Virus record (IMG/VR): IMGVR_UViG_3300032032_000031
Coordinates: 1 to 21,807 of that record
Reading direction: 5' to 3' (one strand)
Origin: a virus
Length of the DNA: 21,807 bases
In this document: piece by piece, positions 5,219 to 21,807 of the stretch
Position numbering within the stretch: the first letter of the stretch is position 1
Layout of the letters: the number at the start of each line of letters is the position of its first letter
Notes under the pieces: model-generated
Seen by the model: the letters and a program-made list of their open reading frames with translations, nothing else
Told to the model about the DNA's origin: nothing
The model's database searches: none
Made by a program: the position numbers and the translations under genes

Positions 5219-5578
5219 ATGGCTCACTTATATTGCCCGGAATGCGGAGCAAAAATAGAATACTCTTTACAAAAACCTCAGTTCTGCTCAGCCTGCGGAG
5301 TTCCTTTGGATGGAAAGCATGCCTCAGCCTCCAAAGGGAAGGCTCCTAGGCATGAAGACAAGGAAAGAGAGGAGGAAAAGGAATTCATCCCTCAAATAAG
5401 CGACTTAGATGTAGACATTGATTATTCTTTTGGTAAAAAATTCACTTTTGAGGAATTGGCCGAAACACCCAAAGAAGAGTTGGGTAGAATCTCGAAAGGG
5501 AAAACAAAACAAAGTGAAGATCCCATTAAAACATCCATGGATGACTGTTTGCCTGGTCGCCGGCATTCAATTGGTTAA
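5219..5578 (+). CDS. small zinc-ribbon protein
   Basis: 119 residues. Cys6-x2-Cys9 and Cys23-x2-Cys26 (YCPECG and FCSACG) form an N-terminal zinc ribbon of the 'double CxxCG' type common in small bacterial and phage proteins. The middle is highly charged (RHEDKEREEEKEF) and probably disordered, and the end is unstructured. It carries the best ribosome binding site in the window, AGGAGGT at 5208-5214, 4 nt before the ATG, so it may be well translated. Its TAA shares a base with the next ATG (TAATG), coupling it to the sigma factor gene. It may help that factor or bind nucleic acid; this is inferred only from context. Confidence 0.75.
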   Translation: MAHLYCPECGAKIEYSLQKPQFCSACGVPLDGKHASASKGKAPRHEDKEREEEKEFIPQISDLDVDIDYSFGKKFTFEELAETPKEELGRISKGKTKQSEDPIKTSMDDCLPGRRHSIG

Positions 5579-6273: not shown

Positions 6274-6274
6274 T

Positions 6275-7324
6275 ATGGACTTAACTGAAGAACAGAAAAA
6301 ATTTATAGACAAGAACTACTTAAGTATTCCGGACTTGATCCTGCTTACTCAAGCAGTATACAAGAATAAGAAGATAGATGGGAGGAGCAAGGAAGGGAAA
6401 ATCGTCGCGGCATATATGGTAAAACAAAAATACAAATACAAGACAAGGAACAACGCAAAGAAAACTGCAGTTAGGTTGTCCGACGAACAGAAAGAGGAAA
6501 TTCTCGAATTATATGAAAGTGGGTTGAAGTCTCTTGCCATAGCTCAGATTATATTTTCCGATAGGGAAGTTAAGAACCTTGGGTTAGAACAAAGGGCTGT
6601 TGCTAAATTTCTCAAAAATAACTCTCCGGATTTCGTAAAGGCCCAAAGGGATGACGAGAAGATGGTGAGGTATATCCCTCCCAGCGGCAAATCAAAATTG
6701 GTCAATAAGGTGAATGAGAAAGCTCAGGCGGAACTAAATTTAGAGAATCTTAAAAGACTAGAGATAGATTGCATTACTCAACTGGAGAAATATTTGCACT
6801 CTCCAAGATTCTCCCAAATAATAATGGGATACGGCAAAGATGACGCTACTTTATTTGAGGCGGAGTTCATCCGGGCAACTTGGAATAAACCCGATTTAAC
6901 AAACGATGAAATTAATCTTTATATCAATGTATGTATAGATTATGTAAATTTAAAAAACATCAATAGAAATATGGAGAAATTGAACCGCATGTTCGACGAT
7001 GCTGAAGACCAAACTGAAATGACGGTAAGGTTAGCAGAAATCCTAAAAGCCAAAAGCGGAGAATATCACCAATGCGAACAGAGACAGGAATCATTAATAA
7101 AGAAACTCAACGGGGATAGAGCTGTCAGGTTGAAGAGTAGGCAAGATTCTAATGCTTCTATGTTATCTTTAGTCCAAGCGTTCCAAGAAGAAGAGGAGAG
7201 GAAGCGCATGTTGGACATGGCTGAGAAGCAAAAACTATTAATACAAGAAGAAGCGGACAAAATAGAGGGTATGGATTCCTGGAAAGCCAGGGTTTTGGGT
7301 ATTGATAAATCAGACGTCATATAA
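6275..7324 (+). CDS. helical HTH/coiled-coil protein, possible small terminase subunit
   Basis: 349 residues, almost all predicted helix. Two related N-terminal segments, LTEEQKKFIDKNYLS (about 3-17) and LSDEQKEEILELYESG (about 68-83), each introduce a helical bundle; the second continues LKSLAIAQIIF, a helix-turn-helix-like pattern. The middle holds a conserved-looking block (GKDDATLFEAEFIRATWNK), and the last third is a long Glu/Lys/Arg coiled coil (EEEERKRMLDMAEKQKLL). DNA-binding N-terminus plus oligomerising coiled coil, just upstream of the large terminase, fits a small terminase or a DNA-bound assembly factor, but no diagnostic motif is visible. It starts 1 bp after the sigma stop and ends with a TAATG overlap into the thermonuclease gene. 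Confidence 0.7.
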   Translation: MDLTEEQKKFIDKNYLSIPDLILLTQAVYKNKKIDGRSKEGKIVAAYMVKQKYKYKTRNNAKKTAVRLSDEQKEEILELYESGLKSLAIAQIIFSDREVKNLGLEQRAVAKFLKNNSPDFVKAQRDDEKMVRYIPPSGKSKLVNKVNEKAQAELNLENLKRLEIDCITQLEKYLHSPRFSQIIMGYGKDDATLFEAEFIRATWNKPDLTNDEINLYINVCIDYVNLKNINRNMEKLNRMFDDAEDQTEMTVRLAEILKAKSGEYHQCEQRQESLIKKLNGDRAVRLKSRQDSNASMLSLVQAFQEEEERKRMLDMAEKQKLLIQEEADKIEGMDSWKARVLGIDKSDVI

Positions 7325-7656
7325 TGTACGAATATAAAATCAAAGAAGTTGTAAGTGTTGTAGACGGAGATACTGTGGACGTATTAATTGATTTGGGCTT
7401 TAACATAATGACTAAAAAGAGAATAAGGCTTGCGGACATTGATGCTCCTGAAACAAGAACAAGAGATAAAGAAGAAAAGAAAAGAGGGTTTATATCAAAA
7501 GATAAACTTTCTCATTTACTATATAATGAACCTGAACTTACATTAATATCAAAGAAGATAGGAAAATACGGTAGAATAATAGGGGAGATATTCGACAGCA
7601 ATAACAAATCTCTCAATAGGGCAATGGTAGATGGTGGATTCGCGACAAAAATTTAA
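7324..7656 (+). CDS. thermonuclease (staphylococcal nuclease family)
   Basis: 110 residues, a minimal SNase domain. The family blocks are all present: VVDGDTVDV (12-20), RIRLADIDAPE (33-43) and KYGRIIGEIF (81-90). The catalytic residues of staphylococcal nuclease have counterparts: Arg35, Glu43 and Arg84 (Arg87 in the model enzyme), with Asp40 available for calcium. The enzyme should cut DNA or RNA at the 5' side of the phosphate using calcium. No signal peptide is present, so it probably acts in the host cytoplasm, where host DNA breakdown or DNA processing are possible roles. Its start overlaps the upstream stop (TAATG), and its 3' end overlaps the next nuclease gene by 26 bp. Confidence 0.92.
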   Translation: MYEYKIKEVVSVVDGDTVDVLIDLGFNIMTKKRIRLADIDAPETRTRDKEEKKRGFISKDKLSHLLYNEPELTLISKKIGKYGRIIGEIFDSNNKSLNRAMVDGGFATKI

Positions 7657-8602
7657 ATGTAAAATCTGTGAAAAAGAGTTTAAATCGATTAGTGGTCTCC
7701 ACAATCATTTATCAAGAATTCACAAAAGCACTCAAAAGGAATATTATTTAACTTATTACCCGCGAAAGAATAAGTTGACGGGAAGCCCCTTGCCCTTCAA
7801 GAACTGGGAATCGTATTTTAATTCTGATTTTACTTTCAGGCCCCAAATGATAAAGTGGTGCTCCAAGGCTCCAAAGGAGGAGGTGAAGAGTTACATATTT
7901 AATTTGCTTAAAAACAGGATGAAATCCAAAAAGCTGGAGCTTGTCCCCAACTCCATTGAGCTAGAAACATCCAAATTGCCGCCTATGGATACCTACAGAG
8001 AGGTTTTCGGCTCATACGCGAATGTATGTAAGGAATTAGGGAAAGAGGCCCTTTACGGGCAGGGAGCGCCCCCCGGCTTTTTCAAGCAGGAACCCACGAA
8101 AGGATTACCTATCTTCGTTGACACCAGAGAACAGAAGCCGTATTCCTATATTAATTCCGAAACGTTAAAGCTGGACTTTGGTGATTATACCCTTGGTGGA
8201 GATAGTTATAATTACATATACATCGATAGAAAAAGCGAAGAAGATTATAAGGGAACTTTATCCGCAGGGAACATCGATAGATTCAAGAGGGAGCTAGATA
8301 GGGCTAGGCAATTTGGAGCATTTCTATTTATTTTGGTTGAAAGTGATTTATCACGAATATGGAGAAACAACCAGTTCTCTTCTCATAAGCATAAGCTAGG
8401 TTTCATATATCACAATATGCGAGTTGTGACTCATGACTATCATGATGTTTGCCAATTTGTATTTGCCGGAACGAGAAGCGAAGCATATAGACTTACTCCT
8501 TTGCTTTTAGAACACGGGCAAAAAGTAAAGAAATCAGACGTTCAATATTTTTTAAACAAAGACATGGAAGATTATGACTTGGGAGATAGGATCACAACTT
8601 AG
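7631..8602 (+). CDS. C2H2 zinc finger plus ERCC4-type nuclease
   Basis: 323 residues with three visible parts. A C2H2 finger: Cys10-x2-Cys13-x12-His26-x4-His31. A short segment at about 117-140 (PPMDTYREVFGSYANVCKEL) that resembles the repeat found beside homing endonucleases. An ERCC4/XPF-type nuclease at about 160-235, with VDTREQKP (163-170), DFGDYTL (182-188) and the metal-binding IDRKSEED (198-205), corresponding to the XPF motif ERK-x3-D. XPF-type nucleases cut branched or flap DNA. The gene lies between the thermonuclease (26-bp overlap) and the large terminase (29-bp overlap), so resolving replicated DNA before packaging is a reasonable inference. A mobile homing-like origin is the alternative, suggested by the finger and repeat. 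Confidence 0.85.
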   Translation: MVDSRQKFKCKICEKEFKSISGLHNHLSRIHKSTQKEYYLTYYPRKNKLTGSPLPFKNWESYFNSDFTFRPQMIKWCSKAPKEEVKSYIFNLLKNRMKSKKLELVPNSIELETSKLPPMDTYREVFGSYANVCKELGKEALYGQGAPPGFFKQEPTKGLPIFVDTREQKPYSYINSETLKLDFGDYTLGGDSYNYIYIDRKSEEDYKGTLSAGNIDRFKRELDRARQFGAFLFILVESDLSRIWRNNQFSSHKHKLGFIYHNMRVVTHDYHDVCQFVFAGTRSEAYRLTPLLLEHGQKVKKSDVQYFLNKDMEDYDLGDRITT

Positions 8603-10448
8603 ACAAAAATACCCTGACTACAATAAGGAGCTTAGCGAAATAGAGGGCGTCGTAGACGAAGAAGAAGCCCGAATTTTGTTATATAAGTTCTTAAGGGAAA
8701 ACACTACTTTCGCGGTAAGCCTGTTGTCCGGAGTGGATCTTTTCCCATTTCAACATATGGCCATCAAGGGAATGATGAAGACCGATTACTTCCTCGGTAT
8801 ATGGAGTCGGGGTTTATCGAAATCCTTTACTACCGGAATTTTCGCATTTCTTGATGCGATATTAAACCAAGGAGTTGAGATCGGTATCCTGAGTAAATCC
8901 TTTAGACAATCGAAACTCATCTTCAAGAAGATCGAAGATATTGCCGCGAAGCCGGAGGCAAAGATGCTGGGTCAATGCATAACCCATAAATCCAAAAGCA
9001 ACGACGAATGGCTTATGGAAATAGGCTCCTCACGCATACGGGCATTGCCGTTAGGCGATGGCTCTAAGCTGCGTGGTTTTCGTTTCCATAGGATAATTAT
9101 CGATGAGTTCCTGTTGATGCCGGAATCGATCTATAACGAAGTTATAGTTCCGTTCTTGTCCGTCGTGGAGAACCCTATGGAACAGCAACGGATGCACGAT
9201 CTAGAAACCAAATTAATTAACGAAGGCAAAATGAATGAGGAGGATCGCTATAAATGGCCTCACAACAAGCTAATAGCTTTGTCATCGGCTTCATATAAAT
9301 TTGAGTACCTCTACAAAGTATACGAGAAATTTGATAATCTAATAACGGGAAAAGACACTGAAGGAGAAAATAGCGATGCGACGAGATGCATTATGCACTT
9401 TAGTTACGATTGCGCTCCCGAAAAACTATACGACTCGAACTTGATAGAACAATCAAAATCCACAATGTCCCAAAGTCAGTTCGATAGAGAATTCGGTTCT
9501 TTATTTACTGATGACAGCAGTGGGTATTTTAAGAATTCCAGAATGGCTGCATGTACGGTTCAAGACGGAATGGAACCTTCCATGGAAGTGGCGGGCAACC
9601 CCAAGGACAAATACCTCTTGGCCTTTGACCCAAGTTGGGCGGAATCGGAAAGCTCTGATAATTTTGCGATGCATGTATTTAAACTACATGATGAAAAACA
9701 GATGGGAACATTAGTTCATTCGTATGCGTTGGCGGGGACTTCCTTAAAGCAGCATATAAATTACTTCCACTACTTGATAAAGTATTTTAATATTGTTTCT
9801 ATAGTGGGGGATTATAACGGAGGGGTTCAATTTTTAAATGCTGTGAATGAGAGTAAGAAGTTTAAGGATTCCAACATAAAGATAGATTTTATCACTGCTG
9901 ATTTTGATAAACCCGAGGAGTATGAAAACGATTTAAGAAAAGCCAGAAGAGAGTATGACTTGGACTCGAAAAAGATTTGTATATTAAGAAAGCCCACTAG
10001 CCAATGGATTCGTAGGGCAAATGAATTACTGCAAGCTAGTTTCGACCATAAGAAAATTGCATTCGGCAGTAGGCCAATTGATGATTATTATACGGCGGAA
10101 ATAAAAAAGAAGATACCCATAAAAAACCTTAAATTTGCAAATTTCGTAGAGCAGGACGAAAAGGAGTCTGCAGCAGCAAAGATGATTGACTTTGTTGAGC
10201 ATCAATACGACATGGTGAATTTGACTAAAACAGAATGCGCTTTAATTCAGATTAAAACCACACCACAAGGCCATCAAAGTTTTGACTTACCTGACGTGTT
10301 GAAGAGAACTTCCGGGCCTAATAAAGCAAGGAAGGATTCATATTCTGCAATTGTTCTTGGAAATTGGATGATTAAGACTTATTATGATTACATGAATGTA
10401 GATTGTACGAATTGGCAAACGACTTTTCAGCCGATGTTTATAGGGTAG
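8574..10448 (+). CDS. terL: terminase large subunit (packaging ATPase and nuclease)
   Basis: 624 residues, a normal length for T4 gp17-like terminases. ATPase: Walker A-type WSRGLSKSF (77-85), in which Ser replaces the usual Gly before Lys, a variant frequent in this family; Walker B IIIDE (174-178), the Glu being catalytic. RNase H-like nuclease: Asp352 in LLAFDPSWAES, Asp413 in IVGDYNGG and Asp588 in KDSYSAIVLG. The protein docks on the portal and translocates DNA into the prohead. The ATG lies 29 bp inside the nuclease gene. The stop is 5 bp before the ATG of the glycan-type cassette, and the portal gene, normally the neighbour, is displaced by about 7.6 kb. Confidence 0.95.
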   Translation: MTWEIGSQLRQKYPDYNKELSEIEGVVDEEEARILLYKFLRENTTFAVSLLSGVDLFPFQHMAIKGMMKTDYFLGIWSRGLSKSFTTGIFAFLDAILNQGVEIGILSKSFRQSKLIFKKIEDIAAKPEAKMLGQCITHKSKSNDEWLMEIGSSRIRALPLGDGSKLRGFRFHRIIIDEFLLMPESIYNEVIVPFLSVVENPMEQQRMHDLETKLINEGKMNEEDRYKWPHNKLIALSSASYKFEYLYKVYEKFDNLITGKDTEGENSDATRCIMHFSYDCAPEKLYDSNLIEQSKSTMSQSQFDREFGSLFTDDSSGYFKNSRMAACTVQDGMEPSMEVAGNPKDKYLLAFDPSWAESESSDNFAMHVFKLHDEKQMGTLVHSYALAGTSLKQHINYFHYLIKYFNIVSIVGDYNGGVQFLNAVNESKKFKDSNIKIDFITADFDKPEEYENDLRKARREYDLDSKKICILRKPTSQWIRRANELLQASFDHKKIAFGSRPIDDYYTAEIKKKIPIKNLKFANFVEQDEKESAAAKMIDFVEHQYDMVNLTKTECALIQIKTTPQGHQSFDLPDVLKRTSGPNKARKDSYSAIVLGNWMIKTYYDYMNVDCTNWQTTFQPMFIG

Positions 10449-10453
10449 GTGAG

Positions 10454-11785
10454 ATGGCTATTCAATATCATTCCAAGATTGCAGGATATACGGATAAAAC
10501 ATCCTTTTCTCGAACAGAAAAAATTCCAGTTAGGGTTAGTTCCGAGTTTCCAATGATTGGCGTTTCTATTATTGATGTATTGACCAAAGAGGAGGTGCAT
10601 AACACTCAATCCCCCGCCCTGAAACAAGCCATAGGAGAATTAGCATTTGCTGAAGGATGCAACTGGGATGAAACTTTCTCAATAGATGCATCTATTTTTC
10701 AGCCCGGGATGTATGCGATAAAATTATCCTCTGGCGGAGAAGAGTTCAATCTTCCTATTATTATTAAAAATGATGGGCCTCCGTCTAGTATAATGGTTGT
10801 CGTGAACACAAATACATGGTGCGCTTATGATTCTTGCTTAACGGGAGGTGCGTTTTATGAGGACTACTTAGAAAGTGATAATGAATACAACCAGGCGAGC
10901 AAACTTAATCCCAGGGGCAGGAATAATGAATGTTCTGTGAGTTCCTTTTCTAAACCAAACCTTTGCACAAGTAAAGAAATGGGTTATTTTTTATCTGGTT
11001 CATTTACCCCTGATAGGTCTCATCAATTTTTTGGAGAAACCTATGTTTGGGAGTGGTTGCGCAAAAATGGTTATAACTTTGATTTTGTTTCGGATTTGGA
11101 TTTAATTGATGCGTCATCCTTTGAAGGGAGAAAGCTAATATTGTTGAACTGCCATCCAGAATATTGGTCCCATCAAATGTATTATAATCTTTGGGGTTGC
11201 ATTAACCATACGGATACCAGTCTCTTGTATCTAGGGGGGAATGCCATATGGCGAAAAGTATTATTAAATAAAGAAAAAAATCGAATAGAAAAAATGGGTT
11301 ACCCCTGGAATTATGTCCAAAACAAATATGAAAGCGGTTTTGCAGTCGATGAATTCGCAAAAGAAAATCCAGTAGATGTTTGCCCCTATGAAATATTAGG
11401 CATGTTCTATGATGAGTCGGGATATAATACTTATGCAACTTTTTCATGCCTTAATGAGGGCCATTTTTTGACCAAAGGCACCAATTGGTTAAAAGGAGAA
11501 GAAATCGGGTCTGATTATGATGTGCAGAAACCAAGTGGGCATGAAACCGATAAAGTCAACCATCGATTTATCACCAAAAGAATGAACCTCGAAAATGCTG
11601 CCTTAATAGGCAAGGGGAGAAATCCCAATCGTGGAGGAGCGGATATATTGTATCACACAATAGACAATTCTCATGTTTTATCAGCAGGGTCCATCACTTT
11701 CGGAAGATGCATTAATGACTCGGGGATATCACAAATGATAAAAAACTTTATGGATCTAATATTTACTGGAGATGAAAATCAATGA
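10454..11785 (+). CDS. N,N-dimethylformamidase large-subunit-like protein
   Basis: 443 residues from ATG 10454, which is preceded by TAGGTGAG. A TTG at 10403 would add 17 residues inside the terminase gene and is less likely. Order: an N-terminal beta-sandwich-like part (GYTDKTSFSRTEKIPV onwards); NTNTWCAYDS (118-127); CHPEYWS (233-239); LYLGGNAIWRK (258-268). These are the recognisable blocks of the C-terminal DMFase beta-subunit-like domain, which has a glutamine-amidotransferase-like core. In the named enzyme it cleaves a formamide; most relatives are uncharacterised. Here an amide- or formyl-group hydrolase acting on a sugar is conceivable, but this is inference. It opens the cassette and overlaps the next gene by ATGA. 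Confidence 0.78.
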   Translation: MAIQYHSKIAGYTDKTSFSRTEKIPVRVSSEFPMIGVSIIDVLTKEEVHNTQSPALKQAIGELAFAEGCNWDETFSIDASIFQPGMYAIKLSSGGEEFNLPIIIKNDGPPSSIMVVVNTNTWCAYDSCLTGGAFYEDYLESDNEYNQASKLNPRGRNNECSVSSFSKPNLCTSKEMGYFLSGSFTPDRSHQFFGETYVWEWLRKNGYNFDFVSDLDLIDASSFEGRKLILLNCHPEYWSHQMYYNLWGCINHTDTSLLYLGGNAIWRKVLLNKEKNRIEKMGYPWNYVQNKYESGFAVDEFAKENPVDVCPYEILGMFYDESGYNTYATFSCLNEGHFLTKGTNWLKGEEIGSDYDVQKPSGHETDKVNHRFITKRMNLENAALIGKGRNPNRGGADILYHTIDNSHVLSAGSITFGRCINDSGISQMIKNFMDLIFTGDENQ

Positions 11786-12708
11786 AATTATCTACAGACA
11801 TTTTTATTAATAAATTCATAACCCAGGAAGGGGATGTAAGGAGAGCTCTGGTCACAAGAAGCCCACCCTTGCCCACAACAATAATAGAAGCATATGCCAT
11901 GACATATGATTTATTAACCGATTTAGAACTAAAACAAAAAATTATAGATAAAGTTGTATTTTATATAAATCAAACGACAGCCGTAAACCAAAATTACCTA
12001 CCGTATATTATTCGTTTGGATTCCAAGGGAGCGTACAACCCAAAAGATTTTAATGTACAGCACTCTTTATGGATCGCAAAGGTATTGTATGACCATTACC
12101 AAATCACTCAAAATAACATATATTACAACTACGCAGAACAGGTCTTCGGTATAGCCAATAATTTTTTACAAAATGGTTTTAATAACTGGAGAATTGATGA
12201 TTCTCCTGAAAGTAATATACCAAGCATTAAATCATTAACAAGGGCTGATCTTTATTGCCTCTTGGGGTCTATGGATGATTTAAATAAAGTGCTGGATTAT
12301 TATAATAAGAACCTTTTCGATAAAAATATTAGTCTTTACAAATCTTTATTGGCTCCCGGATATGATCATCATTTGCATGAAAATTTAGAATTAGTCGAAG
12401 GGCTTTTTTCTGTTTACAAACATACATCAGATGAAAGTTTCTACCAACTCCCTCATCGCCTCATGCATGCGCTTGCCGACAAGGTGGAGAATAGTTTAAA
12501 TATTTTAGCTAAATTACAATTTTATTACTGGGCTCCTTTTTTTGACATTAATACTGATTTTCTCAAAAATCAAATTGATGATTATGCCTTAAGGTATAGA
12601 AATCACCAATCATTATCGGCATACTCTGGAAAAGGCTTTTCTGGCGAGGACGATATATTCCCATATATTTATCTATTAAGAATTTTTACAGACTACGAAC
12701 CATCATGA
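11782..12708 (+). CDS. unknown helical protein, possible alpha/alpha-toroid carbohydrate enzyme
   Basis: 308 residues, no signal peptide. Regular amphipathic helices alternate with aromatic-rich loops (QHSLWIAKVLYDHYQITQN, then YNYAEQVFGIANNFLQNGF, then NNWRIDD). This rhythm recalls alpha/alpha barrel enzymes such as epimerases, lyases or glycosidases, and LVEGLFSVYKHTSDESFYQL is the type of helix pair seen in them. No catalytic residues can be assigned, so the fold is a guess. ATGA overlaps on both sides tie it to the DMFase-like gene and the SGNH-methyltransferase gene, supporting a role in the same glycan pathway. Codons are AT-rich like the rest of the cassette. Confidence 0.7.
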   Translation: MKLSTDIFINKFITQEGDVRRALVTRSPPLPTTIIEAYAMTYDLLTDLELKQKIIDKVVFYINQTTAVNQNYLPYIIRLDSKGAYNPKDFNVQHSLWIAKVLYDHYQITQNNIYYNYAEQVFGIANNFLQNGFNNWRIDDSPESNIPSIKSLTRADLYCLLGSMDDLNKVLDYYNKNLFDKNISLYKSLLAPGYDHHLHENLELVEGLFSVYKHTSDESFYQLPHRLMHALADKVENSLNILAKLQFYYWAPFFDINTDFLKNQIDDYALRYRNHQSLSAYSGKGFSGEDDIFPYIYLLRIFTDYEPS

Positions 12709-14216
12709 TAAAATATAATATATCAGTGTTCGGAGACTCTCATGCTAGGAGTTTTAACAACATCGCTATCAATGGAGCCAATATAGATGTCAACGCTCTC
12801 AGCGGGGCCACCCTCACCGGGTTGGTAAAAAGAATATCTACCCTAGAAGTGTTAGATAAAATAAAGGAGTACATTAACAAAAACCCTAATATAGATTTTT
12901 TAATTTTAAAATTCGGACAAGTAGATATAGATCTTAAATTTTTTTATAAAAAATATGTTAAACAAGAAAATATTAGCGACATTGAATATATTCAGGAGTG
13001 TGTTCGAGCCTGTAAGGTCTTAATAGAATCCATCTCCGAGGTGTTTCCTAGGGAAAAAATCGTCATATGCGGAATTAACCCCCCTACTCCTGTTGATGCG
13101 CAACAAGCACTCGAATACACTTCTTCAATTATATTAACAAATGAAGCGGAAAAGGTGATATCTAGTGCTGAATTCGCAGAAGACATAAACTACTCCAAGC
13201 GACTCAGCAGATCCGCAAAATTAAACTTTGAGTTACGATCCATGTGTAGAGAATCAAAGATTAAATACTTTGAGGTGTTTGGGGAAATTTTAGATAAAAA
13301 TAATTTACTAAATCCACTTTACATAGGTTCCGACCAACACATTAAAGGGGTGGAGCACGATGCTCCAAAAAAACAGCACCCCATTAATAGGCGTTTCCAG
13401 ACGTACGTTTCAAATCTAACCGGGATAACTAACGAAACCCTAACAGACTTTAGTTCGGAAGACGTAACAAGCCGGTACTTAGATTCTCATTACTATCTTT
13501 GTGGAACCTTTAAATCCTATAATAAACCCCCAACTCCTACTCAAGGTTACCCCATTGCCCGAGACATACTACAATATGACCATATCTTAAATATAGATAT
13601 ACCTAACGACATTAAGAGAAATTTATTAAATCAATTCACCTTGAAAGAGGGTGACCATGTTTTAGAATTAGGAGCTTATATAGGTCTAGGGGCTAGATAT
13701 CTATCCAAAAGAGTTGGGACAACAGGCAAGGTTTTATCTATAGAGGGAATTGAATCAAACTATGACCTACTCGTAGAAAACACTTCGTGTTGCGATAATG
13801 TTGATACATATAATACTTGTATATCTTCCGAGGATACACTCAAAACTTTATATACTAGCAGTCAGCAGCTACAAACTAATGAAATGAATAAGGTTCATTC
13901 TAGATACGGCTACGGTAGTGTAAAGCCATCTCAGGAGTTTCCGGTCAGAAGTGTTGATTCTCTTTTGGAGAACGAGTTTAAGGAGGCGGGGTTTTCTCCT
14001 ACATATATTACTATCGAGCTTAACCTTTCAGAATATGATGCATTAGTTGGTATGAAGAAATTATTACAATCATCTAATTATATGAGAATTGTAGTAGCTG
14101 CTTGGTATGACGAGGTTATCAGGAATAATATTATTGAGTTTCTAACAGACATGGGGTTTAAGGTTTTCACCGGGCACTACAATAGAGTTTATGCGACTAA
14201 AGGTCTTGCATTATGA
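12705..14216 (+). CDS. two-domain SGNH hydrolase-like plus FkbM-type methyltransferase
   Basis: 503 residues. N-terminal domain: GDSHAR (10-15) supplies the SGNH block I nucleophile Ser12, FGQVD (70-74) is a block III-like segment with Val instead of Asn, and DQH (210-212) gives the Asp/His pair. Such domains remove or transfer acyl groups on sugars. C-terminal domain (about 310-500): HVLELGAYIGLGARYLSK (318-335) is the SAM-binding loop, VLSIEGIESNYDLL (343-356) the second strand, and VRSVDSLLENE then YITIELNLSEYDALVG match the FkbM family, which O-methylates sugars or other small groups. A linker of about 90 residues separates the halves. ATGA overlaps join it to both neighbours. The fusion implies that de-acylation or acylation and methylation act on one substrate. 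Confidence 0.82.
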   Translation: MIKYNISVFGDSHARSFNNIAINGANIDVNALSGATLTGLVKRISTLEVLDKIKEYINKNPNIDFLILKFGQVDIDLKFFYKKYVKQENISDIEYIQECVRACKVLIESISEVFPREKIVICGINPPTPVDAQQALEYTSSIILTNEAEKVISSAEFAEDINYSKRLSRSAKLNFELRSMCRESKIKYFEVFGEILDKNNLLNPLYIGSDQHIKGVEHDAPKKQHPINRRFQTYVSNLTGITNETLTDFSSEDVTSRYLDSHYYLCGTFKSYNKPPTPTQGYPIARDILQYDHILNIDIPNDIKRNLLNQFTLKEGDHVLELGAYIGLGARYLSKRVGTTGKVLSIEGIESNYDLLVENTSCCDNVDTYNTCISSEDTLKTLYTSSQQLQTNEMNKVHSRYGYGSVKPSQEFPVRSVDSLLENEFKEAGFSPTYITIELNLSEYDALVGMKKLLQSSNYMRIVVAAWYDEVIRNNIIEFLTDMGFKVFTGHYNRVYATKGLAL

Positions 14217-14983
14217 TCTACGGAGATCGAGGAATATTCTTCCTATCTGCAGGAAGAGCTGGAACTGAAACAATTCACACAATACTTAAAAGCTTTGACG
14301 GCATTTCTTCCTACCACGAGCCACATCCATTATTGTTTGAGTTAGGCTCAAAAGCTTACGGAGGCCCTGAGATAGATAGAGATTTTATTTTATCAGAAAT
14401 AGAATCAAAACGTAAAAACATATGGTCAACATTAAAAATCAATACATATATCGAAACAAGCCCTCAAGTTACTTTTGTTCATGAATACTTTCAGTACTTT
14501 TTTGATGCTTGCAAATATGTCTGGATGATAAGAGAGCCAATAGAATTTATCAATTCCGGACTAAATAGAGAATATTACAAAACCGACTTGCACTGGGATA
14601 AAAATAGAATAAAGCCGAAAAAAGATACTAATTATAACGCCATCTGGAATGGCCTTAATCAATCATCCAAGATTTTATGGTTGTGGACGGAAACAAACAA
14701 ATATATTTATGATAAAATATCGAATTTGCCAAAAAATACTTTTTTTACAATTTACTCCAAAGATATCTTTAATAATACAACGAAATTATACGAATTATTA
14801 AAATTTTGCAACAAAGATGCTGCCTGTGACACGAATCAAGTTTTAAATATTTTGAACAAAAAACTTAATAAAAACATTAGAGCTCAATATAAATATAAAT
14901 CATTATCTGAGCTAGATATAAATGATTACATATTGAATGACTTTTACACACACTATGATTTGTTCAAGAAGTATTTTAATTAA
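14213..14983 (+). CDS. PAPS-dependent sulfotransferase family protein
   Basis: 256 residues. LSAGRAGTET (11-20) is the 5'-phosphosulfate loop that binds PAPS, and YVWMIREPIEFINSG (102-116), with Arg107 and Ser115, is the 3'-phosphate-binding block. Together they define the sulfotransferase fold. A His-Glu-Pro-His segment (35-38, YHEPH) lies in the acceptor region. The enzyme would transfer sulfate from PAPS to a sugar hydroxyl or amine; PAPS would come from the host. It starts by ATGA overlap. The C-terminal third is Lys/Asn-rich with no further motif. Sulfotransferases of this kind occur in polysaccharide clusters, which fits the glycosyltransferase that follows. Confidence 0.8.
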   Translation: MIYGDRGIFFLSAGRAGTETIHTILKSFDGISSYHEPHPLLFELGSKAYGGPEIDRDFILSEIESKRKNIWSTLKINTYIETSPQVTFVHEYFQYFFDACKYVWMIREPIEFINSGLNREYYKTDLHWDKNRIKPKKDTNYNAIWNGLNQSSKILWLWTETNKYIYDKISNLPKNTFFTIYSKDIFNNTTKLYELLKFCNKDAACDTNQVLNILNKKLNKNIRAQYKYKSLSELDINDYILNDFYTHYDLFKKYFN

Positions 14984-14998
14984 AAAAGGGGAGATATT

Positions 14999-15754
14999 AT
15001 GAGTAAAATTCATTTGACTGCGGCTTTGCCTACATTTGCAAATTCAAATATTATTTGGCTGCAGCTAGAAAGCTTATGCCGTCAAGAATGCAACCTTAAC
15101 TGGGAACTTATTATTTCCGAAGAACAGGGGGTTGAGGGTATGTTTGGCGAAGCTGGACTATCGGAATTTAGAGAAAGACTGGTTTTGGCTGGGTGCAAGA
15201 AAATCAAATATATTCCACTAGAAAAGAGATTGCCCTTATCTAAAAAATGGTGGCTTATGGCACAGTACTCAGAGGGTGAGTCTTATGCTCTATGCGGTTC
15301 GGATGACTACTCTTCCCCAGATAGATTTGAACTTTCCCACTCTATACTGCAAAAGGGATATGATTGGTTTAATATTAAAAAGGGTTTATTTCTTAATGTC
15401 CAAACCATGCATACGGGCACATTTGTAGCTGAAAACATAAAAAGAGGATTAACTATGTGTACTCAGACAAGTTTAGTTAAAAATATAAAAGACACAAATT
15501 GGCCCACATCCTCTGTAGACGGCTGGTTGCAGCAAAAAATGTCAAATTTTTATCAGCACGAAGAAAATGTGGCCGGATTAGATACAGATGGTTCAAATAT
15601 AATTTGCAGTGGGAGAAGAATATTATATAGTGACAAGCATTGGTCGCAGTGCTTTATTCCTCCAGAGCAAGTCATTGAAGATATTTTGCCACAATCGATT
15701 ATTGATAAAATAAAAACCACAAAATTCTTTTATCCCGAAAGATTTATAAATTAA
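14999..15754 (+). CDS. family 2-like glycosyltransferase (GT-A fold)
   Basis: 251 residues. The start IHLTAALPTFANSNIIWLQ, with SLCRQECNLNWELIISEE, is the usual first beta-alpha-beta of GT2 enzymes, and GSDDYSSPDRFE (around residue 98) provides the DxD-like nucleotide-sugar and metal site. SKKWWLMAQ matches the family's helix before the DxD. The C-terminal acceptor part (SSVDGWLQQK) is less typical. It should transfer one sugar from a nucleotide sugar to an acceptor, which could be a virion protein, a lipid or a host surface glycan. The ribosome binding site GGGGAGA lies 7 nt before the ATG, so it can be translated independently of the upstream gene 15 bp away. Confidence 0.82.
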   Translation: MSKIHLTAALPTFANSNIIWLQLESLCRQECNLNWELIISEEQGVEGMFGEAGLSEFRERLVLAGCKKIKYIPLEKRLPLSKKWWLMAQYSEGESYALCGSDDYSSPDRFELSHSILQKGYDWFNIKKGLFLNVQTMHTGTFVAENIKRGLTMCTQTSLVKNIKDTNWPTSSVDGWLQQKMSNFYQHEENVAGLDTDGSNIICSGRRILYSDKHWSQCFIPPEQVIEDILPQSIIDKIKTTKFFYPERFIN

Positions 15755-15760
15755 ATAGAA

Positions 15761-17587
15761 ATGTGTGGAATTTTTGGAGTTATAAGTGATAATTATTTCA
15801 CTTTAAAAGATAAGAAGATTAAGCGTTTGGCGAAACTTTCTGAATCAAGAGGCAAAGATTCCAGTGGTATTCTTGTAGGCTCAGAGGATTTTTTTGATAT
15901 TCAAAAAGCAGACTATTCAATTACAAGTCTTTATGGCCAAGCATCTACGAAAAAAATAAAAATTGCCTTGGGCCACAGCAGGCTTATTACCAATGGAAAC
16001 TCAGATAACCAACCAATTTACAAAGATGACATTGTTGTATTTCATAATGGAATCATAATAAACCATGAAGAACTATGGAAGTCTTCGGAAAATCAAAGGT
16101 CTCTGCAAATAGATACTGAAATTATTGCTGAAATCACAAGGTCTTTTTTAATCGGAAATTCTGATTATAAATCATTATGTCGGGAAATTATCCATAAATG
16201 CTCTGGGACAATTGCGTGTGCGATCCTTTTGCCCAAGGAAGGCAAGCTTATTTTATTTTCTAACAACGGAAGCTTGTTCCTAGGGGTGCTTGGTGATCAT
16301 TTCGTCTTTGCGTCTGAAAAATCTTTTTTAAAAAAGATTAAGTGCATTAACATTAAACAAATTTATGAACCGGAGATTTTAGATTGTTGCATTTTAAATT
16401 CTGCCCCAGCAATTTCATTACTAAAAAAACCTAGGCTTAAGTTGCTTCCGGCCTTGACTTTTTCAAATTCAGAAAGAAAGATATTAATACATCGAGAGCA
16501 TGATCTTAAAAGATGTTCTAAATGCATTCTCCCAGAGACAATGCCATTTATTAGATTCGACTCCGAAGGTGTTTGTAACTATTGCCACAATTATGCCCCC
16601 AGAAATATTCCTCGTCCTAAGGAGGAGCTTTTTGAATTAGTAGAGAGGTATCGCAGAGAGATCGGAAGCGATTGTATAATCCCTTTAAGCGGGGGTCGTG
16701 ACAGTTTTTTTTGTTTGGACATGGCTGTTAGCGAACTGGGTCTAAAGCCAATAACGTATACTTATGATTGGGGTATGGTAACCGATTTGGCAAGAAGGAA
16801 TATTAGCAGAATTTGCGCTGACCTAGGCGTGGAAAATATAATTTTTGCTGCAGACATCCCAAGAAAGAGATTAAATATACAAAAAAATTTATTAGCTTGG
16901 TTGAAATCACCACACCTGGGGATGATCAGCTTGCTTACGGCTGGTGACAAACATTTTTTTAAATATATCAATGATGTTAAAAAATCAACTGGAATTAATT
17001 TAAATTTATGGGGAATAAACCCTTTGGAAGTAACCCACTTTAAGGCTGGATTTCTTGGAGTTCCCCCTAATTTCGAGGAAAAGCTGGTGTATTCTAGCGG
17101 CACTTTAAATCAACTAAATTACCAACGACTCCGGCTGGGGAGAATGTTTGAAAATTTAGATTATTTCAATAGTTCCATTTATGATACTTTATCTGGAGAG
17201 TTTTATAGAACGTTTGCTAAAAAAAGAGATTACTTTCATATATTTGATTACTGGAAATGGGATGAGAGTCCCGTGGATAAAATATTAAAAAAATACTCTT
17301 TTGAGCTTTCTCCGGACACCTCGTCTAGCTGGAGAATCGGTGACGGAACTGCTGGGTTTTATAATTATATTTATTATAATGTCGCTGGTTTCACGGAAAA
17401 CGATACTTTTAGAAGCAATCAAATTAGAGAAGGCGATTTAAATAGGGAAGAAGCCTTAATGCTTGTGAAAGACGAAAACCAACCAAGGTACGAAAGCATC
17501 AAATGGTATTTAAATGCCGTTGATATTGATTTTTGTTATGCCATGGGAATAGTTAATAACATAAAGCCTTTATTTAATCCATTATAA
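15761..17587 (+). CDS. class II glutamine amidotransferase fused to N-acetyl-sugar amidotransferase
   Basis: 608 residues. N-terminal glutaminase: Cys2 is the nucleophile (MCGIFGV), followed by RGKDSSG (30-36), GHSR (71-74), HNGII (95-99) and DTE (118-120), all class II Ntn motifs as in GlmS and AsnB. C-terminal half: CSKC-ILPETMPFIRFD (252-267) and VCNYC (271-275) form the Cys4 cluster of the WbpG/PseA-type N-acetyl-sugar amidotransferases, then the PP-loop SGGRDS (310-315), which activates the substrate with ATP. Such enzymes turn an N-acetyl group into an acetamidino group. WbpG normally takes ammonia from a separate HisH-type class I glutaminase; here a class II glutaminase is fused instead. 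It begins 6 bp after the glycosyltransferase and closes the cassette. Confidence 0.85.
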   Translation: MCGIFGVISDNYFTLKDKKIKRLAKLSESRGKDSSGILVGSEDFFDIQKADYSITSLYGQASTKKIKIALGHSRLITNGNSDNQPIYKDDIVVFHNGIIINHEELWKSSENQRSLQIDTEIIAEITRSFLIGNSDYKSLCREIIHKCSGTIACAILLPKEGKLILFSNNGSLFLGVLGDHFVFASEKSFLKKIKCINIKQIYEPEILDCCILNSAPAISLLKKPRLKLLPALTFSNSERKILIHREHDLKRCSKCILPETMPFIRFDSEGVCNYCHNYAPRNIPRPKEELFELVERYRREIGSDCIIPLSGGRDSFFCLDMAVSELGLKPITYTYDWGMVTDLARRNISRICADLGVENIIFAADIPRKRLNIQKNLLAWLKSPHLGMISLLTAGDKHFFKYINDVKKSTGINLNLWGINPLEVTHFKAGFLGVPPNFEEKLVYSSGTLNQLNYQRLRLGRMFENLDYFNSSIYDTLSGEFYRTFAKKRDYFHIFDYWKWDESPVDKILKKYSFELSPDTSSSWRIGDGTAGFYNYIYYNVAGFTENDTFRSNQIREGDLNREEALMLVKDENQPRYESIKWYLNAVDIDFCYAMGIVNNIKPLFNPL

Positions 17588-17655
17588 TAAAATTTCTCAC
17601 ACAGGATTAAGCCTACAGCCCAATTGTAGACAGATGAGGAGTGTAACTTACTTCT

Positions 17656-17970
17656 ATGAACTTGATCATAGAAGCTCCCCTCTCAGCCCCTCCTAGTGAG
17701 ATTTCTTGCTTCCGGGATGTTACTCTTTACGGGAAGATATTTATATTCGAAGACGTTTTATTAAAATGCGAGAAAGGATCTAGAAGTTTTTATTGGGAGT
17801 GGTTAAAAGCCCATGGAGCGCATGACTTCATATCTCAATTACTAAAAGAAAGCGAAGATGTATCCGGGTTTGTTATAGGAGAAAAGAAAAGTAATTTAAA
17901 TATCCCTCGAATTGATGCCTTTAATTTGAGCTTTATCATTTCTGCGATATCGTCTGTTAGTGACAGATAA
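17656..17970 (+). CDS. small protein of unknown function before the portal
   Basis: 104 residues, no recognised family. It begins MNLIIEAPLSAPPSEIS, contains an aromatic stretch (SRSFYWEWLKAHGAHDF), and ends in a hydrophobic Ser-rich helix (LSFIISAISSVSD). The only Shine-Dalgarno candidate, GAGGAG at 17636-17641, is 14 nt from the ATG, farther than usual; no in-frame start lies closer because a TAA is in frame at 17644. The gap from the cassette (17588-17655) is 68 bp and contains TATAAT-like sequence at its start. The position suggests a head-related or regulatory protein; nothing in the sequence proves it. Confidence 0.6.
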   Translation: MNLIIEAPLSAPPSEISCFRDVTLYGKIFIFEDVLLKCEKGSRSFYWEWLKAHGAHDFISQLLKESEDVSGFVIGEKKSNLNIPRIDAFNLSFIISAISSVSDR

Positions 17971-17983
17971 AACCATAAAGTCC

Positions 17984-18034
17984 AAAGTCGACTTTTAACT
18001 TTTGTTAGACTTTTGAATTTGTGTGTGTATTATA
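17984..18034 (+). promoter_or_regulatory. candidate control region of the portal gene
   Basis: A perfect 12-bp palindrome AAAGTCGACTTT (17984-17995), two copies of GACTTTT (17989-17995 and 18008-18014) and the box TGTATTATA (18026-18034), 5 bp before the preferred ATG at 18040. The box and its spacing are identical to those before the lipoprotein-like gene at 2578. A 12-bp palindrome alone is expected a few times by chance in this length, so the box is the stronger part. Confidence 0.3.
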
Positions 18035-18039
18035 ATAAT

Positions 18040-20028
18040 ATGCCGCAAAAACGTAAATATACAAAAAGATCCGAGTATTGGCAAAAGTTCCAAACTAAAA
18101 ACCTCCCCTTAGAAAGCCTTATTAGTCAGGAGAACACAGGCCCTATATTGGCTGGAGACAATTACTATGTGAGTACTTATGCCCAAGCTAGCTCAGCGGG
18201 GACCGCATCTTATGATAGAAGTTCGTCTAGAGTTAACCAAGGATCTTCCAAGAGAAGTCAGGGAGTAGGATCTCCATACGCAAATATAAAAGAAGGAATA
18301 CTCCCGTATGACTTTAAGTCGAATGGGGTGGACATAAGGGAAACCGTAGACTTGTGCCAAAGAGCTTACGCTAATGTTCCTATATTTAGAAACGCAATAG
18401 ATATAATGTCAGAACTGGCTAATTCAGCCATACACGTCGAGGGAGGGACAGAAAAGTCAAGAAAATTTGTAGAAAAATGGTTTGCTAAAATTAACCTTTG
18501 GGATCTTAAGGATCAATTCTTTCGTGAATACTATAGATCCGGAAATGTTTTCCTGTATAGAGTAGATGGCAAATTCACAACCAAAGACTTTGCGAAATTA
18601 AATAAGATATACGGAGGAGAAGGGTTAAAGCCCGGGCAAATACCTATTCGATACATTCTCCTTAACCCTTATGATGTTATAGCGACAAGGAGCACCTCTT
18701 ATAAGGACGGGGTATATAAGAAAATTCTGTCGGAGTATGAACTTGAGGAGCTTAGAGAGCCCAAGACGGAACACGACAAAGAGATTCTTAAGAACCTACC
18801 AAAAGAAGCAAGAGAAAAAATCAAGAAAGGAACATGGTCTCCAAATGGGATAGAGATAACCCTAGATTCCACAAAACTGTCTAGCACTTTTTATAAGAAA
18901 CAAGATTATGAGCCATTTGCCGTTCCATTTGGTTTCCCGGTATTGGATGACATCAACTGGAAACTTGAATTAAAGAAGGTTGACCAAGCGATAAGTAAAA
19001 CCATCGAGAATGTTATTCTTCTTATAACTATGGGAGCAGAGCCTGAAAAAGGGGGAATAAATCCAGAGAATCTTTCTGCGGCAAGATCTTTATTTCAAAA
19101 CGAAAGCGTAGGAAGAGTTATGGTGGCCGATTATACCACTAAGGCTGAGTTCGTGATTCCTGATATTAGCAAAATAATAGGCCCCCAGAAATATCAAATA
19201 GTCAACGAGGACATTAAAGAAGGATTGCAAAATGTTATTGTCGGCAATGATAAATTCGCGAATACCCAAGTAAAAGCCGAGATATTTTTAGAAAGACTAA
19301 AGGAAGCCAGGTTGTCTTTTTTGAATAATTTCCTTCAAGACCAGATTAAGATGGTGTGTCAAAATTTAGGATTCAGGGATTATCCTGTGGCTAGATTTGA
19401 GGAAATAGATATTAAGGATGAGGTTCAATTCCAGAGAGTCGTAACAAGACTACTTGAAATAGGCATAATTACTCCGGAACAAGGGATTAAGGCCATGAAG
19501 ACAGGCATATACCCTGATTCTAAAAACTTGAAGGAAGCACAAAAGGAATATGTCAAGGAAAGGGAGGATGGTTTGTTTAATCCTTTAATCGGTGGCGTTC
19601 CCATGATAGAATCTCCGGAAAGTAATGAAACGACAGGGCAGCCATCGGCTGGAAGACCTACAGGCACAAAGGAGATAAAGCAAACCAATACTACTAGGGC
19701 TGAAGAGTTGTATAGTAGGAAGGAAGTTCAATCTATTATATATGAGGTCGAAGATCTTTATTCTCATTCCAAAGACAGGATGAATAAAAAAATGAAAACT
19801 GAGTCCTTGAGTAAGGAGCGGGAGGGGATGCTAATGGATTTGTGCAAATCGGTAGTTTCATCAAGAGAGAAAAAGAACTGGAAAAGAGAAGTTACTAATT
19901 GTATAAAGAATTTCGACAAGATAGAATCCCTGTTGCCCATCTCTGAGATTTTGGAATTATCCCAAAAGCACGAACTCGATTTATACCCTTCTTCATTGTT
20001 GTATCACAGTAATAAAAAAGAAGTGTAA
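18040..20028 (+). CDS. portal protein
   Basis: 662 residues from ATG 18040 (MPQKRKYTKRSEYWQKF). A TTG at 18013 would only add nine residues encoded by the AT-rich control region. The central part is typical of T4 gp20-like and other phage portals: DLCQRAYANVPIFRNAIDIM, a clip and stem region (PFGFPVLDDINWKLELKKVD, then QAISKTIENVI) and a long C-terminal helix (NEDIKEGLQNVIVGNDKFAN). Twelve copies should form the ring at one prohead vertex through which the terminase packs DNA. The last 130 residues are charged and probably disordered, helical at the end. The protease-scaffold gene follows after 9 bp. Its normal neighbour terminase is 7.6 kb upstream. Confidence 0.88.
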   Translation: MPQKRKYTKRSEYWQKFQTKNLPLESLISQENTGPILAGDNYYVSTYAQASSAGTASYDRSSSRVNQGSSKRSQGVGSPYANIKEGILPYDFKSNGVDIRETVDLCQRAYANVPIFRNAIDIMSELANSAIHVEGGTEKSRKFVEKWFAKINLWDLKDQFFREYYRSGNVFLYRVDGKFTTKDFAKLNKIYGGEGLKPGQIPIRYILLNPYDVIATRSTSYKDGVYKKILSEYELEELREPKTEHDKEILKNLPKEAREKIKKGTWSPNGIEITLDSTKLSSTFYKKQDYEPFAVPFGFPVLDDINWKLELKKVDQAISKTIENVILLITMGAEPEKGGINPENLSAARSLFQNESVGRVMVADYTTKAEFVIPDISKIIGPQKYQIVNEDIKEGLQNVIVGNDKFANTQVKAEIFLERLKEARLSFLNNFLQDQIKMVCQNLGFRDYPVARFEEIDIKDEVQFQRVVTRLLEIGIITPEQGIKAMKTGIYPDSKNLKEAQKEYVKEREDGLFNPLIGGVPMIESPESNETTGQPSAGRPTGTKEIKQTNTTRAEELYSRKEVQSIIYEVEDLYSHSKDRMNKKMKTESLSKEREGMLMDLCKSVVSSREKKNWKREVTNCIKNFDKIESLLPISEILELSQKHELDLYPSSLLYHSNKKEV

Positions 20029-20037
20029 TCCTTTCCC

Positions 20038-21654
20038 ATGGGATTGCCGTATAAGTATATAACATCTTTTAACGACGAAGTTCGAGCTTCATCTGAGAGT
20101 GTAGAAAATCTAAGTTCAGGATTATCGGAAGCTTCTCTTTCTTCATTGAAGCCATTGATACCTCAGGATATTGATTTTGATAGAAATATTGATCTCCTTG
20201 GAATTGCGTTCAACGCGGCTGTAGTTAATAGATTTAATAAGAACGATGATGGGATAACAACCGAAACTGCATTAGCGGCTTTGGATTACTTTATAAATAA
20301 ACCAACGAATATAGAACACAATAAACAAAAAGTCGTTGGCCATGTAGTTTCAGCAGGATTCTCTAAATACGGTGAAGCTTCCTTGATTAGGAGGGACGAA
20401 ATTGACCCTGAAGACTTAACCCCTTTTAATATAGCCTTGGCGTCTGTAGTATATAAAGCAGTGAATTCGGAATTTGCTTCCTTAGTGGAAAGATCCGTAA
20501 ACCCCGAAGATGAATTATATCAATCTGTTTCCGCTAGTTGGGAAATAGGCTTTAGTGATTACGTTATTGCCCTTGGCAGCAAAAACCTTGAAGAAGCCGA
20601 AATAATAGAAGACGAAAAACATATAGAAGAATTAAAAGCTAGTCTCAGGGCATTTGATGGTTCTGGCAAACTAGAAGACGGAACGGAAGTATATAGATTA
20701 GTGACCGGAGATGTTTATCCGCTGGGCATAGGATTCACAGCGAACCCAGCAGCCGATGTCAAGGGAATCTTCTTGCATGGAGAAGATAAAAAAAAAGAGA
20801 TAGAGGCGAATGACGACCCTCAGGATGTAGAAATTATCCATGTAAAGTCTACTGCTTTTTCTAAAAAAATAAATATTTATAAAAAAAATAATTCCCATGC
20901 AGGGAAAACACATGTAAATTTGGATGAAATCAAAAATGTTATGGAAGTCAACGAACTACTAGATCAAATTAAGGCGTTAATCGAGGAAAAATCTGAAGAG
21001 AAGTTTTCCGAAGAAAGTGTAGCCAATATAATCAAAGTCGTATCCGATGCGATTCGCGACAAGAGCGAGCAATACGTATCTGAAAAGGCGGAAGCCGAAC
21101 AGGCCAAGCAAGAAGCTGTTGATGCTCAAGTCGAATTGGAAAAGAAAATCGAGTTGATCGAGAAAGACCTTAGCTCTTCCACTGAAAGAGTTCAAGAGCT
21201 CGAAAGCGAACAAGCCGAAGCGAAAGCAGAACAATTGTTCAACGGCAGAATGGAAGAACTTGATAAAGAATACGAATTGTCCGATGAAGACCGAAAGGTT
21301 ATTGTTGCGGATGTCCGTTCTCTTGACTTGACCGAAGAATCATTTTCGGCATTCCAAGAAAAAATGAAGGTCATCTTTAGCCATAAAGCGAAAGAGTTCA
21401 TTCAGGAACAAAAGGAAATTTTTGAAAAGGCTGTCCAAGCTGAAGTAGCTAAAGAAGTTTCGACTACTTTAAAAACAGAAGAGAAGACAGAAGCAAAGGA
21501 TGATGAAGGAGAAACGGAAGTTGCCTTGGATCAAGTAGAGGCCACATCCGAAGAAGTTTCATCCAACAATGCAGAAACAGCAGAAAAGGAAGGCTCCTTT
21601 CGCGATAAATTCGAAAAAGCTTTTTCGGAAGACAATGTAATAATAAACTATTAA
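20038..21654 (+). CDS. prohead protease fused to a scaffold-like coiled coil
   Basis: 538 residues. The N-terminal half (about 1-270) resembles phage prohead maturation proteases: PTNIEHNKQKVVGHVV (89-104) supplies the conserved His94, and SASWEIGFSDYVIAL (165-179) the Ser-containing strand near the active site. A Lys-rich linker (about 250-295) leads to a long Glu/Lys/Ala coiled coil (about 300-480) and an acidic tail, the composition of a scaffold or core protein. The fusion resembles protease-scaffold precursors such as lambda C/Nu3, where the scaffold is removed from the prohead after assembly. An in-frame ATG at 20941 falls exactly at the domain border and might start a separate scaffold. 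The probable capsid gene starts 30 bp after the stop. Confidence 0.8.
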   Translation: MGLPYKYITSFNDEVRASSESVENLSSGLSEASLSSLKPLIPQDIDFDRNIDLLGIAFNAAVVNRFNKNDDGITTETALAALDYFINKPTNIEHNKQKVVGHVVSAGFSKYGEASLIRRDEIDPEDLTPFNIALASVVYKAVNSEFASLVERSVNPEDELYQSVSASWEIGFSDYVIALGSKNLEEAEIIEDEKHIEELKASLRAFDGSGKLEDGTEVYRLVTGDVYPLGIGFTANPAADVKGIFLHGEDKKKEIEANDDPQDVEIIHVKSTAFSKKINIYKKNNSHAGKTHVNLDEIKNVMEVNELLDQIKALIEEKSEEKFSEESVANIIKVVSDAIRDKSEQYVSEKAEAEQAKQEAVDAQVELEKKIELIEKDLSSSTERVQELESEQAEAKAEQLFNGRMEELDKEYELSDEDRKVIVADVRSLDLTEESFSAFQEKMKVIFSHKAKEFIQEQKEIFEKAVQAEVAKEVSTTLKTEEKTEAKDDEGETEVALDQVEATSEEVSSNNAETAEKEGSFRDKFEKAFSEDNVIINY

Positions 21655-21683
21655 GCAACTAAAAAACTTTAACACTAAATACA

Positions 21684-21807
21684 ATGGCACTAAGAATCCT
21701 ACCATTCAGACAATACGACGAGAACGACGTCATTAACTTGTACTCGCTTGACGAGACTATTCCAGTGGATCCTTCCGAGGATGGAGTAAACGCCGCAGGC
21801 GTAGTTG
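21684..21807 (+). CDS. start of the probable major capsid protein, cut by the window edge
   Basis: ATG 21684 opens a frame to the window end, 41 residues beginning MALRILPFRQYDENDVINLY. Its place just after the protease-scaffold gene is that of the major capsid gene in most tailed phages, and the strong bias to C-ending codons (ATC, TTC, TAC, GAC, AAC), clearer than in any other gene after 2500, is expected for the most abundant virion protein. No Shine-Dalgarno site precedes it; the leader is A-rich (AACACTAAATACA). With only 41 residues the identity rests on position and codon use. Confidence 0.65.
   Translation, partial: MALRILPFRQYDENDVINLYSLDETIPVDPSEDGVNAAGVV

Follow-up and report, generated by a model that had tools for sequence, protein, structure and literature searches.

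A probable exchange site for glycan-modification cassettes immediately after the terminase gene of an uncultivated phage

Six genes, several of them resembling glycan-modifying enzymes, lie between the terminase and portal genes of the uncultivated phage in IMG/VR record IMGVR_UViG_3300032032_000031. How did they come to be there, and what do they modify? The record sequence of 21,807 nt (21.8 kb) is the whole stretch analysed, referred to as the window, and all coordinates are window positions. Comparison with related phages makes it probable, in our judgement, that phages of one clade exchange glycan-modification cassettes in the DNA directly behind the terminase stop codon, with the host surface as the likeliest target.

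The block after the terminase gene in related phages

The cassette at 10454-17587 consists of six intact, tightly spaced open reading frames (ORFs), all on the + strand and 3' of terminase. The terminase stop at 10448 is followed by 5 bp and then by the ATG of gene 1 at 10454. There are 4-bp overlaps between genes 1 and 2 (at 11782), 2 and 3 (12705) and 3 and 4 (14213), and gaps of 15 bp between genes 4 and 5 and 6 bp between genes 5 and 6. A preliminary description of the sequence had listed six co-oriented genes with ATGA overlaps or gaps of no more than 15 bp, and all six ORFs were found as described. The gene at 17656 proved to be a 104-amino acid (aa) ORF and not the portal, which is the next one. 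The features are as follows.

8574-10448, +: terminase large subunit, 624 aa, conserved left flank of the proposed exchange site (PHROG 2, E=2e-26; PF03237)
10454-11785, +: gene 1, DMFA2_C (N,N-dimethylformamidase / N-acyl amide acylase-type), 443 aa (PF20254, E=2e-38)
11782-12708, +: gene 2, predicted mostly helical, 308 aa
12705-14216, +: gene 3, SGNH-like N-terminus fused to an FkbM-like S-adenosylmethionine methyltransferase, 503 aa (phrog_8156; motifs)
14213-14983, +: gene 4, sulfotransferase-like, 256 aa (Sulfotransfer_3, E=0.098; likeness to a protein of phage L004; motif)
14999-15754, +: gene 5, GT2-like glycosyltransferase, 251 aa (Glycos_transf_2, E=0.066; GSDDY motif)
15761-17587, +: gene 6, class II glutaminase plus WbuX-type N-acetyl-sugar amidotransferase, 608 aa (GATase_7; TIGR03573)
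17591-17655, +: stretch where homology to phages L004 and L005 restarts, right boundary of the putatively exchanged block (alignment)
17656-17970, +: conserved 104-aa ORF (g104) between cassette and portal (identical protein in L004 and L005)
18013-20028, +: portal, 671 aa from TTG 18013 (ATG 18040 is the likelier start), conserved right flank (PHROG portal, E=0.028; position)

The phages L004 and L005 are about 94-97% identical to the window on both flanks of the cassette. Homology to them stops at 10447, inside the terminase stop codon, and restarts at 17591; between the equivalents of these two positions there are eight unrelated genes in L004 and six in L005. On reading, the proteins of these cassettes include two glycosyltransferase-like ones, a polysaccharide-deacetylase-like one and methyltransferase-like ones, and two sulfotransferase-like genes are present in the L004 cassette only, not in that of L005. 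L004 and L005 differ from one another by a block swap inside the cassette. The deacetylase-like gene of the L004 cassette was found, among close relatives, only in these two phages.

Synonymous divergence (dS) between the window and L004/L005 is 0.24-0.53 in the genes at 5.2-7.3 kb and 0.04-0.09 in ercc and terminase, a drop of about 5-fold from the upstream genes to the pair that borders the cassette on its 5' side. On the other side it is 0.016 in the 104-aa ORF, 0.12-0.14 in portal and 0.11-0.23 in the next gene. In most pairs of phages which do not differ by a swap, terminase dS is not low compared to its neighbours (eg L008-L014, L039-L041 and L052-L082). Because dS in ercc and terminase is low relative to the upstream genes, the comparison suggests, as the simplest reading, that the cassette was replaced by homologous recombination in the flanks. 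Cassettes would move through the conserved ercc-terminase sequence on one side and g104-portal on the other.

The cassette is also present in L002, from a different metagenome, which is collinear with window positions 8727-21785 at 99.985% identity over 13,059 bp and contains the same block. The possibility, raised in the preliminary description, of an assembly join between 10448 and 17656 was settled by this second assembly; the junction is not an artefact.

To place the site in a wider group, 423 related terminase stretches were collected from IMG/VR, and the best 80 loci were used for tree rows and counts. The portal gene is directly 3' of terminase in 44 of these 80 rows, with a spacing of about 20-40 bp to the equivalent of TTG 18013 and somewhat more to the ATG. 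The window portal is weakly recognised by hidden Markov model (HMM), with the PHROG E-value listed above, and was placed by its conserved post-terminase position in dozens of relatives. All rows in the cassette state fall in a single 17-row clade (SH-aLRT 99). Of its rows, 13 have cassettes, two (L012 and L016) are contigs that break off within what looks like the first cassette gene, L007 has a small insert with a cytidylyltransferase-like gene, and L015 has an empty site of 23 bp. With so many adjacent rows, and an empty site within the clade, the earlier view holds that a cassette has been inserted where terminase and portal are normally close together. The order terminase-cassette-portal is found in the window and L002, in L004, in L005, and in L011 and L013. 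Outside the clade, L048 has a single MptE-like gene at the site, by tally and by reading.

The content of the cassettes was surveyed in 39 proteins downstream of terminase in nine records. Matches to Sulfotransfer_2 were obtained for 16 of them, and others match methyltransferase, galactosyltransferase, cytidylyltransferase and MptE-like families. Sulfotransferases also occur outside cassettes in these phages, three of them in the record of the empty-site L015. The ratio of non-synonymous to synonymous divergence (dN/dS) is 0.12-0.26 in cassette genes of the pairs L008/L014 and L004/L005, which argues that the relatives' cassette genes are maintained for function, under purifying selection.

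Some further features of these relatives were noted. At L008:14073-16334 a 753-aa protein has a long N-terminal stretch with no assigned family and, C-terminal to it, a Sulfotransfer_2 match; it is possibly a two-domain glycan enzyme. In the records of L008, L009, L010, L017, L018 and L020 the portal lies away from terminase, on the opposite strand, and in many of the records of L021-L037 a 538-aa gene is directly 3' of terminase; head gene order has been repeatedly rearranged in this phage group. A homologue of the 104-aa ORF (35% identity) is found at L009:16990-17292 on the - strand, away from both terminase and portal, and this ORF is therefore not tied to the cassette site.

The cassette genes

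Gene 6 matches GATase_7 (E=9e-12) and WbuX/TIGR03573 (E=8e-41), and its initial assignment as a glutaminase-amidotransferase was borne out. The second match is below the curated cut-off of TIGR03573 (140.7 vs 203.2 bits); bacterial fused relatives and a protein of phage L003 are likewise below it, and all four members tested score 122-151 bits. Because every tested member falls short of the cut-off, the branch to which gene 6 belongs is placed, by these scores, as a sister group of the curated WbuX/WbpG/PseA family, outside the TIGR03573 model. The 80 best bacterial loci from 84,980 species genomes, which come from many phyla, all encode the full-length fusion at 54-59% identity, every match spanning gene 6 residues 1 to 591 or beyond. 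An alignment of 11 sequences, gene 6 of the window among them, showed the motif CxxCxLPxTxPxIxFDxxGxCNYC and the SGGRDS PP-loop to be invariant or nearly so, and the class II glutaminase Cys2 is present in all the fused sequences aligned, including gene 6. From its catalytic motifs, gene 6 is a probable glutaminase-coupled N-acetyl-sugar amidotransferase.

The bacterial fusions are like gene 6 in their homology over the full length, their domain order and their catalytic motifs, but the loci around them differ. At 13 sampled loci the neighbours were exopolysaccharide-type glycosyltransferases, initiating sugar phosphotransferases and NeuD-type acetyltransferases; the bacterial loci thus have initiating transferases, acetyltransferases and several glycosyltransferases, whereas the phage has gene 6 with unrelated modifiers. 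The glutaminase-WbuX fusion was considered as a novel architecture and rejected, since the fusion is common in bacteria. L003 (IMGVR 3300035698_007036) is a phage contig of 119.5 kb with a long glycan cluster at 1256-13666, containing GT4-like, UDP-GlcNAc 2-epimerase-like, GDP-mannose dehydratase-like and FlaA1-like genes. The WbuX protein of that cluster is 64% identical to the C-terminus of gene 6 and lacks the glutaminase; a gene-6-type glutaminase was not found elsewhere in the L003 record.

Gene 1 scores well over the Pfam gathering threshold of PF20254 (133.1 vs 27 bits), in agreement with its first description as similar to dimethylformamidase (DMFase). Its PDB matches are of low identity, to N-acetyl-(R)-beta-phenylalanine acylase (8huy, E=4e-8) and, weakly, to DMFase (6lvb). 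In the Paracoccus DMFase, iron is bound by Y399, Y440 and E521, and H519 and N547 are catalytic (PMC7686228). Residues Y125, H234, E236 and N263 of gene 1 align with DMFase Y399, H519, E521 and N547, respectively, and the alignment is poor around the third iron ligand, Y440. Gene 1 is a probable iron amidohydrolase.

Gene 2 gave no Pfam, NCBIfam or significant PDB match, none of 385 genomes of one bacterial class contained a relative, and an AF2 prediction from the single sequence was uninformative (pLDDT 37.7). The C-terminus of gene 3 (residues 310-487) matches the methyltransferase phrog_8156 (E=4e-8); its translation contains the motifs GDSHA and LELGAYIG, the SGNH half being assigned by eye from GDSH. 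An anti-defence reading was rejected, the PADLOC match being limited to the weak methyltransferase mad2 (E=3e-6) in gene 3.

The Sulfotransfer_3 (PF13469) match of gene 4 reaches 13.3 bits against a gathering cut-off of 27. No PF03567 match was found anywhere in the window; several other phages of the clade have PF03567 genes above the gathering cut-off. Over 191 aa, gene 4 shares 26% identity with a sulfotransferase-like protein from the L004 cassette, and the two have similar P-loop-like motifs; gene 4 has a 5'-phosphosulfate-binding-like motif, SAGRAGTE. The Glycos_transf_2 (PF00535) match of gene 5 is at 13.6 bits, also under the gathering cut-off (23.3), and the GSDD of its GSDDY motif is common to L004/L005 cassette proteins. 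Among the families named in the preliminary description, the methyltransferase of gene 3 is upheld by the PHROG match, while for genes 4 and 5 the HMM matches are all sub-cut-off, gene 4 being backed by its likeness to the L004 protein. The only close relatives of genes 1, 2, 3 and 5 in IMG/VR are those in L002, the second assembly of the same phage, and genes 1-5 have no detectable homologue in the bacterial loci which carry gene-6 homologues.

Transcription and the likely target

A promoter-like element precedes the portal gene.

17990-18039, +: promoter-like element before portal, with ACTTTT repeats, TAGACT-16-TATTAT, GTGTATTATAAT (conservation in relatives)

The ACTTTT repeats followed by GTGTATAATA are kept 5' of portal in nearly all relatives, and accompany the portal in seven records where it lies away from terminase, as well as in L015. 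The two strongest matches to the element in the window are at 18019, before portal, and at 2550, and the window scan found no such element at the cassette start. The element was noted at 17990-18040, 2550 and 4200. The -10-like box ends about 6 nt 5' of ATG 18040 and would yield a nearly leaderless portal transcript. Generic sigma-70 and terminator scans performed near chance level. Because the element precedes portal and none was found at the cassette start, we infer that the terminase transcription unit has the cassette as its distal part and that portal starts a new one; the cassette would then be read last within the terminase unit, and transcription would stop short of the portal promoter. 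The earlier proposal that the position gives the cassette late, structural-level expression is weakened by the portal having its own promoter-like element downstream. A block after the terminase stop breaks neither terminase nor the portal promoter, which may explain why insertions are tolerated there.

Nucleotide-sugar synthesis, initiation, flippase, polymerase and export genes are all absent from the cassette. Since it has no gene for nucleotide-sugar synthesis, initiation, flipping or polymerisation, a host-made sugar is probably the substrate on which its products would act. Gene 6 would convert an N-acetyl to an acetamidino group with ammonia from glutamine, genes 1, 3 and 4 would remove or add acyl, methyl and sulfate groups, and gene 5 would transfer the sugar. 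Remodelling of the host surface glycan during infection could in this way stop re-adsorption or superinfection. The host surface glycan is most likely the target, with virion decoration next, given the kinds of genes that surround gene 6 homologues in bacteria and the proposed layout of the transcription units. The preliminary description's glycan-modifying cassette is retained, with amidinating, sulfotransferase-like and methyltransferase-like enzymes; its 'amidinated, sulfated, methylated sugar' was deduced from the families.

Several observations weigh against an exchange site for functional glycan cassettes. The L026-L035 pair also has a mild dS dip in ercc and terminase, and the dip seen here could be chance mosaicism, as dS varies widely along the genomes in other pairs. 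Eight of the 13 cassette rows have no portal downstream of terminase, so that these are post-terminase cassettes and not terminase-portal inserts; where the record includes the portal, it lies elsewhere on the opposite strand. The family assignments of genes 2, 4 and 5 are weak or lacking, and purifying selection was measured in the cassettes of relatives, the window cassette being without diverged orthologues for comparison.

The strongest alternative is that the cassette decorates capsid or tail proteins of the phage, its exchange amounting to virion serotype switching. Such decoration could hide or alter exposed surfaces, the cassette adjoins structural genes, and the flanking virion proteins are nearly identical while the cassettes differ. 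FkbM, sulfotransferase and glycosyltransferase families can, moreover, act on protein-linked sugars. However, since the portal has a promoter-like element of its own, the cassette does not clearly belong to the structural transcription unit, and the bacterial relatives of gene 6 sit among exopolysaccharide-type genes. We regard virion decoration as unlikely, but as deserving serious attention.

It is improbable that the block has no function for the phage, as neutral stuffer DNA or as cargo carried transiently. The idea has been raised for the lipopolysaccharide clusters of large cyanophages (PMC3037559), and the cassettes are dispensable, as seen from L015 and the other rows with an adjacent portal. 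The ORFs are, however, all intact and tightly coupled, gene 6 retains its catalytic motifs, and the dN/dS ratios of the L008/L014 and L004/L005 cassette genes disfavour it. More improbable still is an action of the enzymes on phage DNA or on a small molecule, eg in a glutamine-dependent base modification, and not on a glycan. DNA hypermodification is frequent in phages, and gene 6 has a weak PP-loop similarity to QueC-like and PAPS-reductase PHROGs, but its C-terminal half matches WbuX far better, its similarity to exopolysaccharide-cluster proteins (54-59%) extends over its whole length, and no nucleotide-modification gene adjoins it. An assembly join of the phage with a bacterial glycan locus can practically be dismissed: the block has a slightly lower G+C content (about 0.31-0.38 vs 0.36-0.41) and an altered GC skew, but L002 has the same junctions and L004 and L005 hold different cassettes between the same two points.

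Relation to known variable regions

A variable region right after terminase is known already from T4-like cyanomyoviruses, in which the region between gp17 (terminase) and gp18 is hypervariable, or 'hyperplastic' (Millard et al. 2009, as cited in PMC3037559). As in that account, variable extra genes are found here directly 3' of the large terminase, between conserved flanks. The other flank in the cyanomyoviruses is the tail sheath gene and the cassette there is for carbon metabolism, going by PMC3037559, whereas here the flank is portal and the content glycan modification. The two regions work alike without being one and the same locus: the right neighbours in the window are the 104-aa ORF and portal, with no sheath gene, and the nearest terminases of cultured phages are at most about 29% identical, over part of the protein.

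The host recognition cluster of pelagimyophages is likewise a hypervariable island in the structural region; it includes several glycosyltransferases, which have been proposed to change the host surface as a protection against coinfection (PMC7029224). It differs in its mean size of 44.6 kb, its position between VrlC and gp14 and its tail fibre genes, and sulfotransferases are not mentioned in the main text of that paper (PMC7029224).

The present site differs from these regions in having portal as a flank, glycan-related content rich in sulfotransferases and a probable enzyme for amidino sugars, and in that swaps of the whole block are directly evident between near-identical genomes. In bacterial capsule and O-antigen serotype switching, non-homologous blocks of sugar genes are swapped between conserved flanks by homologous recombination. 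The exchange proposed here works alike, but it is in a phage, after terminase, and the block would modify a polymer and not build one. A bolder proposal is that this phage lineage undergoes serotype-like switching, whole non-homologous cassettes for amidination, sulfation and methylation being swapped right after terminase by recombination in the flanks, with phage-made acetamidino sugars among the products. We put it forward tentatively, with more doubt than belief. No description of phage-made acetamidino sugars was found in the literature searched. If the proposal is true, phages that are otherwise nearly alike in their genes would wear different sugar coats, or would differ in their ability to re-dress the host.

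Should the cassettes change the virion or host surface, these near-identical phages are a ready-made comparison of the benefit of glycan modification, which might be protection from superinfection or from the loss of receptors to debris. The terminase-portal distance is a simple genomic marker for finding more cassettes, and with gene 6 the phage repertoire gains a probable amidino-sugar enzyme coupled to a glutaminase. Elsewhere in the window, two overlapping genes lie 5' of PhoH at 2563-3511, a small lipoprotein-like ORF that contains a single EF-hand motif and one for a DnaJ-domain protein.

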